Below are positions 37,120 to 38,093 of a DNA stretch of 64,000 nt, one piece after another. The position numbers and the translations under genes were made by a program. The notes beneath the pieces are model-generated. The model worked only from the letters and a program-made list of their open reading frames with translations. It had not been told where the DNA came from and did not search any database. Position 1 is the first letter of the stretch. Each line of letters starts with the position of its first letter. Source of the stretch: Chloroflexota bacterium (lineage in GTDB: Bacteria > Chloroflexota > Limnocylindria > P2-11E); NCBI GenBank assembly GCA_005883625.1, contig VBDU01000076.1, forward strand, positions 1 through 64,000, written 5' to 3'.

Positions 37120-37701
37120 GTGGCGCGGATCAGCTATGCGAACGTCGATGCGTCCGCCGATCCGGAGCTCCGCGAGTACATGGAGCAGGCGCGGCGGTTC
37201 GGTACGCCGCGGCCGGAGACGCAGGCGATCCGCTCCCACGTCCCTGCGGTCGCGAAGGCCTTCTCGCGCGCGTGGGAGAGGATCTTCCGGAACGGCCTCG
37301 TCGAGCACGCGCTGAAGGAGCTCTGCCGCGTGTACGTGTCGAAGACCATCGAGTGCAGCTACTGAGGGAGCCAGCGGTCTCTCCGGGCGGGAGAGCAAGG
37401 ACTCACCGAGGACGACTACAAGGAGCTTCTGAACTTCGAGCGGTCCGCCCGGTTCAGCGACCGACAGAAGGCCGCGCTGCTCTACACGAGCATGCTCGTC
37501 TGGGATCCTGAGGGCGCGGACCGGCGCGTGTGGTCGCGGCTTCGCGAGCACTTCAGCGACGAACAGATCGTGGAGCTGGGCTCCTTCGTCGCGCTCACCT
37601 ACGGTCAGCAGCGGGTGATCAAGACCTGGGCCGTGGGGCACGCCGAGCTGCCCGCGCATCCGACCGCCGGCCTCGCCGCCGACGCGGACGGCCCGGGATG
37701 A
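37120..37701 (+). CDS. AhpD-like (carboxymuconolactone decarboxylase family) protein, candidate selenoprotein
   Basis: A 193-residue reading frame with one in-frame TGA (37363-37365). The frame is protein-like on both sides: before it LVEHALKELCRVYVSKTIECSY, after it GSQRSLRAGEQGLTEDDYKELLNFERSA and on to YGQQRVIKTWAVGHAELP. The TGA falls exactly where the AhpD/CMD family has the second Cys of the redox CxxC, giving Cys79-Ser-Tyr-Sec82. A 6-bp hairpin with a GGGCG loop lies 14 nt downstream (see SECIS entry). AhpD-like proteins reduce peroxiredoxins or other disulfides. GTG 37120 is 7 nt after TAGCCT; TTG 37117 is the alternative. A stop or sequencing error cannot be excluded. ATGA overlap couples the paralogue that follows. 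Confidence 0.75.
37379..37395 (+). promoter_or_regulatory. Candidate bacterial SECIS hairpin
   Basis: CTCTCC (37379-37384) pairs with GGAGAG (37390-37395) around the loop GGGCG. The stem begins 14 nt and the loop 20 nt after the TGA at 37363-37365, inside the 16-37-nt window described for bacterial SECIS apical loops, and the loop opens with G as required by SelB. The stem is short; folding was done by eye. Confidence 0.45.
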
Positions 37702-38093
37702 GCCGCGGAGCTGCGCCCGTCCGACAGCTTCCGGGCACCGCGGACGAGATCCGCGCCCGCGTCCCCGCGGTGCTCGAGGCGTACGAGTTCACCCGCGACA
37801 ACGTCCTCCGACGCGGCGTCGTGGACCAGGACCTGAAGGAGCTCTGCTTCCGATTCCTTGCGGGTGACCCGGCGACGAGGGACGTCGCGGTTCGCACCGA
37901 GCGCGAGCGCGCGGCCCTCGAGTGGGCCGAGGCGATCGCCTACGACTCCGACCGCGCCGGGGACGCGCTCTGGTCCCGGCTGCATTTGCTGTTCAGCGAG
38001 TCCGAGCTGGTCGACCTTGGCTGCGCGATCGGGTTCGAGCTCGGTTACCAGCACTGGCGCAGGACGATCGGGCTCGCGCCCCGCGACGACTGA
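37698..38093 (+). CDS. AhpD/CMD-like paralogue without the CxxC motif
   Basis: A 131-residue helical protein resembling its upstream neighbour: NVLRRGVVDQDLKELCFRFLAGD corresponds to RNGLVEHALKELCRVYVSK, and SRLHLLFSESELVDLGCAIGFELGYQHWRR to SRLREHFSDEQIVELGSFVALTYGQQRVIK. The segment with Cys-x-x-Cys (or Cys-x-x-Sec) is replaced by DPATRDVAV, so it has no redox pair. It overlaps the previous gene by ATGA and may form a hetero-oligomer with it, as CMD proteins are oligomeric. Function otherwise unknown. Confidence 0.75.
   Translation: MSRGAAPVRQLPGTADEIRARVPAVLEAYEFTRDNVLRRGVVDQDLKELCFRFLAGDPATRDVAVRTERERAALEWAEAIAYDSDRAGDALWSRLHLLFSESELVDLGCAIGFELGYQHWRRTIGLAPRDD

Follow-up and report, generated by a model that had tools for sequence, protein, structure and literature searches.

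A predicted CMD/AhpD-like selenoprotein of soil Chloroflexota and its coupled paralogue lacking the CxxU segment

A forward-strand gene at positions 37120-37701 of the window, the 64,000-nucleotide stretch of Chloroflexota DNA analysed here, very probably encodes a CMD redox protein into which selenocysteine (Sec) is inserted at UGA 37363-37365. Sec insertion is well supported, since the TGA is conserved among orthologues, the hairpin behind it covaries across genomes and loses its pairing in genes with Cys at this site, and the host carries the Sec machinery. CxxU selenoproteins of the AhpD/CMD kind are already known, while the subfamily described here and the gene paired with it seem not to have been described before.

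The frame opens with GTG, ends with a TGA stop at 37699-37701 and, under the reading TGA = Sec, is open for 193 amino acids (194 codons including the final stop), the only internal TGA falling at residue 82. The Cys79 codon of the C-S-Y-U motif (TGC, 37354-37356), predicted to supply the resolving residue, is invariant in 24/24 aligned homologues. When the window gene was compared with 13 orthologues, differences at codon positions 1, 2 and 3 numbered 79, 38 and 277 upstream of the TGA and 86, 117 and 316 downstream of it. The third-position excess on both sides argues that the frame is more than chance, as does the recurrence in orthologues of TGA at the same codon with both halves otherwise open. 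Judging from these substitution patterns, both halves of the gene, including the one behind the UGA, are under purifying selection.

Outside the window, 24 further orthologous loci with TGA at the Sec codon were found, in the same genus, family and phylum and in two Actinomycetota MAGs, and ten more distant ones have TGC. Within the set formed by the host's own genome and 150 relatives, all 15 loci that cover the codon have TGA, the relatives sharing 75-85% identity with the window; at a sixteenth locus, in genome G006, the contig ends before the codon. Two orthologues of the same class (47-49% identity) have TGC. A scan of GTDB genomes added the two Actinomycetota MAGs with TGA (72% identity) and nine TGC loci with identities of 41-55%, from Blastococcus, Acidimicrobiia, Streptosporangiaceae, beta-proteobacterial bins and others, one of which probably duplicates the genome of a class relative, and a 400-genome sample of the phylum yielded eight more TGA orthologues in three other families. 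Every orthologue of at least 72% identity that covers the site has TGA at exactly this codon and is otherwise open on both sides. The nearest named orthologues come from soil Chloroflexota MAGs. A scan of viral contigs gave no relatives, and a plasmid scan gave only matches below 60% identity. Two contigs with Cys orthologues (L078 and L079, 41-44% identity) belong to MAGs titled Bordetella parapertussis, names that are perhaps those of mislabelled environmental bins. In an Acidimicrobiia MAG (L072), another CMD protein, whose C-T-Y-C motif is intact, is encoded on the opposite strand some 2.8-3.2 kb downstream from the Cys orthologue.

The predicted SECIS element occupies 37379-37395 on the forward strand, with a 5' arm at 37379-37384 (CTCTCC), a loop at 37385-37389 (GGGCG) and a 3' arm at 37390-37395 (GGAGAG). 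The stem begins 13 nt and the loop 19 nt past the UGA. With its 6 bp stem, its 5-nt loop opening with GG, the 19 nt spacing and an MFE of -10.0 kcal/mol, the hairpin agrees with the published bSECIS constraints, for which the bacterial SECIS model outlined in PMC13188914 was used. In the window sequence alone, single-sequence RNA folding gives a stability that is not unusual against shuffles (z = 0.2), and shuffles of its synonymous codons fold equally well. Selection on the hairpin is visible only by comparison across genomes. In a set of 26 Sec sequences, 21 of them distinct, the stem is paired in 93.7% of its cells and five of the six pairs show two-sided compensatory changes, with variants such as CTGCCC/GGGCAG, CGGTCC/GGATCG (loop GGTCT), CTGTTC/GAACAG and CTGCCT/AGGCAG. 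The covariation score of the stem is 0.467 against a shuffle mean of 0.178, none of 500 shuffles reaching the former, and sliding the arms lowers it to 0.006-0.190. The corresponding columns of ten Cys homologues are paired in 14.8% of cells. Six of the 17 closest sequences (L033, L062, L067-L070) pair imperfectly in the 6-bp register and best two nucleotides over; this shifted register, which pairs in 17/17 of the closest sequences, was set aside, as the wider family shares the register 37379-37384/37390-37395. On this comparative evidence the hairpin is a SECIS element.

The host genome (3.19 Mb in 129 contigs, 92.5% complete, with the window on contig C62) contains the four components of the Sec trait, tRNA-Sec, SelA, SelB and SelD, of which SelA and SelB are seen in part, at contig ends. 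The tRNA-Sec scores 75.2 bits and is called tRNA-SeC(tca) by ARAGORN, with a UCA anticodon. The selA match (284.9 bits, above cut-off) covers the N-terminal half and runs into the end of C17, and the SelB C-terminal winged-helix domains (PF09106/PF09107) lie at the end of C30, the rest of selB being cut by the contig end. That both genes break off at contig ends suggests that a selA-selB operon was split by the assembly. Two other selB candidates were rejected: the best selB profile match, at C62:100869, has an ORF sequence resembling translation initiation factor IF-2, and the candidate on C66 resembles EF-Tu, the SelB part being the one on C30. The selD gene (C125:486-1412, minus strand; 347 bits) has its own in-frame TGA within STCAGUGAKL, and a 66-nt stretch around that TGA gives a more stable fold than its shuffles (z -2.5). 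The selenoprotein gene was found in 24 Chloroflexota genomes, 16 in the window's family and eight in three other families; selA or tRNA-Sec is present in every one and both are present in most, the absences falling in incomplete assemblies. The two same-class genomes with TGC also carry the Sec trait, and the machinery therefore does not dictate residue 82.

Of the checks put forward in the sequence-only reading, all that were run gave results in its favour. Its 194-codon frame with one in-frame TGA is exactly as described; the placement of that TGA at the second position of the redox CxxC (C79-S-Y-U82) agrees with a Pfam match that spans it and with Cys in distant orthologues; residue 82, where it expected Cys or Sec, is encoded by TGA in close homologues and is Cys in more distant ones; the CTCTCC/GGAGAG stem with its G-rich loop covaries in the register it gave, and not in Cys homologues; the Sec trait it anticipated was found in the genome as tRNA-Sec, selA, selD and the C-terminal part of SelB; and readthrough with selenocysteine gains support from the conserved TGA, the SECIS covariation and the Sec machinery.

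The Pfam match in question, which covers residues 42-122 of the read-through protein, is to the CMD domain (PF02627; 31.2 bits, cut-off 23). Every NCBIfam subfamily that the selenoprotein matches gives a score below its cut-off: the YciW-related (seleno)protein family NF053654 55.9 bits (cut-off 310), the 'peroxidase-related' family TIGR01926 41.8 bits (cut-off 81.8) and the AhpD core domain TIGR00778 11.5 bits (cut-off 27.8). An AlphaFold model (mean pLDDT 78.6) retrieved the AhpD/CMD fold from the PDB, with Bmp8 debrominase, P. aeruginosa AhpD and other AhpD/CMD proteins as best matches. The relatives found in the PDB by sequence are AhpD-like proteins with Cys at the residue aligned to the TGA. 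By these profile scores, which correct the sequence-only reading on this point, the selenoprotein is a member of the CMD superfamily that is only distantly related to AhpD proper and stands nearest to NF053654 and TIGR01926.

Directly downstream, at 37698-38093 on the forward strand, lies a diverged CMD paralogue of 131 amino acids without the CxxU segment (hereafter the partner), whose ATG overlaps the upstream stop by 4 nt (ATGA); the sequence-only reading had overlooked it. Aligned to the selenoprotein family, it gives an hhalign probability of 99.7% and lacks 27 columns around CxxU. Its AlphaFold model (mean pLDDT 88) keeps a helical CMD-like core, and its PDB matches, weak by E-value (best 0.016), are at the top all AhpD/CMD proteins. 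In 15/15 fetched relatives, the two Actinomycetota among them, the partner follows directly, by stop-start overlap or abutment. The 16 family genomes that carry the selenoprotein gene, counting G006, all have the partner as well; beyond ordinary CMD matches it is absent from the other 135 relatives. Deeper Sec orthologues (L086-L093) and the Cys orthologues have no partner within the stretches examined. The selenoprotein genes with a partner form one clade (100/100), and the association therefore counts as a single evolutionary origin. A link of the partner to Sec as such is ruled out by the Sec orthologues of other Chloroflexota families, which lack it within the stretches examined; this makes the partner an innovation of one clade. 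Its start on the post-UGA stop fits translation of the read-through frame.

Several other explanations of the TGA were weighed. A mechanical ORF call ends at this codon (82 codons from TTG 37117), as expected if the TGA were a real stop, the product being cut short at 81 residues or the gene being a pseudogene whose second half is a relic. We consider this very unlikely, given that all close orthologues, from several genera and two phyla, retain the TGA, with purifying selection on both sides, that the hairpin covaries and that distant orthologues have Cys at the same codon. TGA is also one base away from TGC, yet a sequencing or assembly error, by which TGC or TGT was misread, is extremely improbable when the same TGA recurs in many MAGs from separate submissions and two phyla. 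An open frame is by itself silent on which residue is inserted, and the TGA might be read, generally or in this context, as Trp or another residue; a tRNA-Sec with UCA anticodon together with selA and selD in the genome, Cys rather than Trp at residue 82 of homologues, and the use of TGA as terminator by the selenoprotein gene and its orthologues leave this reading a negligible probability.

Less one-sided is the question of whether, with Sec insertion accepted, the partner is a protein in its own right rather than a subunit of the selenoenzyme. The lack of a partner beside the deeper Sec orthologues and the Cys orthologues speaks for such independence, and we regard it as a real possibility, albeit the less probable one. 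It is opposed by the co-occurrence in all 16 family genomes and the absence from the 135 relatives without the selenoprotein, by the stop-start overlap or abutment throughout the fetched relatives, and by the shared fold.

In the mechanism that we favor, the SECIS hairpin would recruit SelB with Sec-tRNA(Sec), whereupon the ribosome would read UGA 37363-37365 as selenocysteine. The predicted product is an all-helical thiol oxidoreductase of the CMD/AhpD fold with the redox pair Cys79-Ser-Tyr-Sec82, in which, following the general chemistry of AhpD-type CxxC proteins, Sec82 would most likely act as redox-active nucleophile or donor, with Cys79 as the resolving thiol. The selenoprotein and its partner are presumably co-translated across the stop-start overlap, and they somewhat more probably form a hetero-oligomer than not, where the partner could be a structural or substrate-site subunit, perhaps a non-catalytic one that completes the oligomer or the substrate site. 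By analogy with the fold matches, Bmp8 debrominase and AhpD proteins, the chemistry may concern peroxide, disulfide or dehalogenation. We put forward, tentatively and with less than even confidence, an obligate asymmetric CMD complex of a Sec-bearing catalytic subunit and a subunit without the redox segment, possibly serving a special substrate, as in reductive dehalogenation, rather than a generic peroxidase partner; Bmp8, the best fold match, provides the example for such chemistry.

The host genome has a second CMD gene (L055, C34:57938-58066, minus strand) with TGA at the second Cys (N-D-C-T-F-U-V-L-A-H-A), which by its sequence probably encodes another selenoprotein. Further CMD paralogues of the relatives (L040; L043, L046 and L050; L096 and L097) have TGA at the same motif position, as C-P-F-U, C-R-Y-U and C-A-Y-U, and several CMD selenoprotein subfamilies would therefore exist in one phylum.

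These results would add a well-supported selenoprotein subfamily and indicate that several redox genes of little-studied soil Chloroflexota employ Sec and would be truncated by automatic annotation. A paralogue that lacks exactly the Sec-bearing segment provides a natural test case for the way in which a selenoenzyme may turn into an asymmetric complex, and the occurrence of SECIS-bearing Sec orthologues and SECIS-less Cys orthologues makes Cys/Sec exchange traceable inside one family.

Among known systems, the CMD-domain families TIGR04029 and TIGR04030 (Avi_7170/Avi_7169) are suggested to be neighbouring genes by their locus-tag names alone; the selenoprotein scores far under their cut-offs and the partner gives no match. 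NF053654 (GroundWater_YciW), the nearest curated family, aligns to selenoprotein residues 2-160 including the Sec site, and the CMD selenoprotein candidate L040 of the relatives (C-P-F-U) is closer to it, at 122 bits, than the window protein. The top fold matches of the predicted model, the tetrabromopyrrole debrominase Bmp8 (PDB 6ohi, 6ohj) and P. aeruginosa AhpD (7xw1), are Cys proteins of about 20-26% identity that may act on other substrates than the window protein. AhpD-like and CMD-like CxxU selenoproteins are known from the Sargasso Sea and GOS surveys (PMC1088965, PMC2398784), with listings in PMC13188914 and PMC9312934. No mention of a coupled CMD paralogue that lacks the active-site segment was found in those parts of the selenoprotein survey literature that a non-exhaustive search covered. 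The AhpD-like (COG2128/TIGR01926) and CMD-like (PF02627) survey proteins share with the window protein the CMD/AhpD fold, Sec in place of the second Cys of the CxxC and a bacterial SECIS directly downstream. The window protein differs from them in its TIGR01926 score of only 41.8 bits, in the motif C-x-Y-U-G-x-Q-R-S of a Chloroflexota/Actinomycetota subfamily and in the coupled CxxC-less paralogue of its gene.
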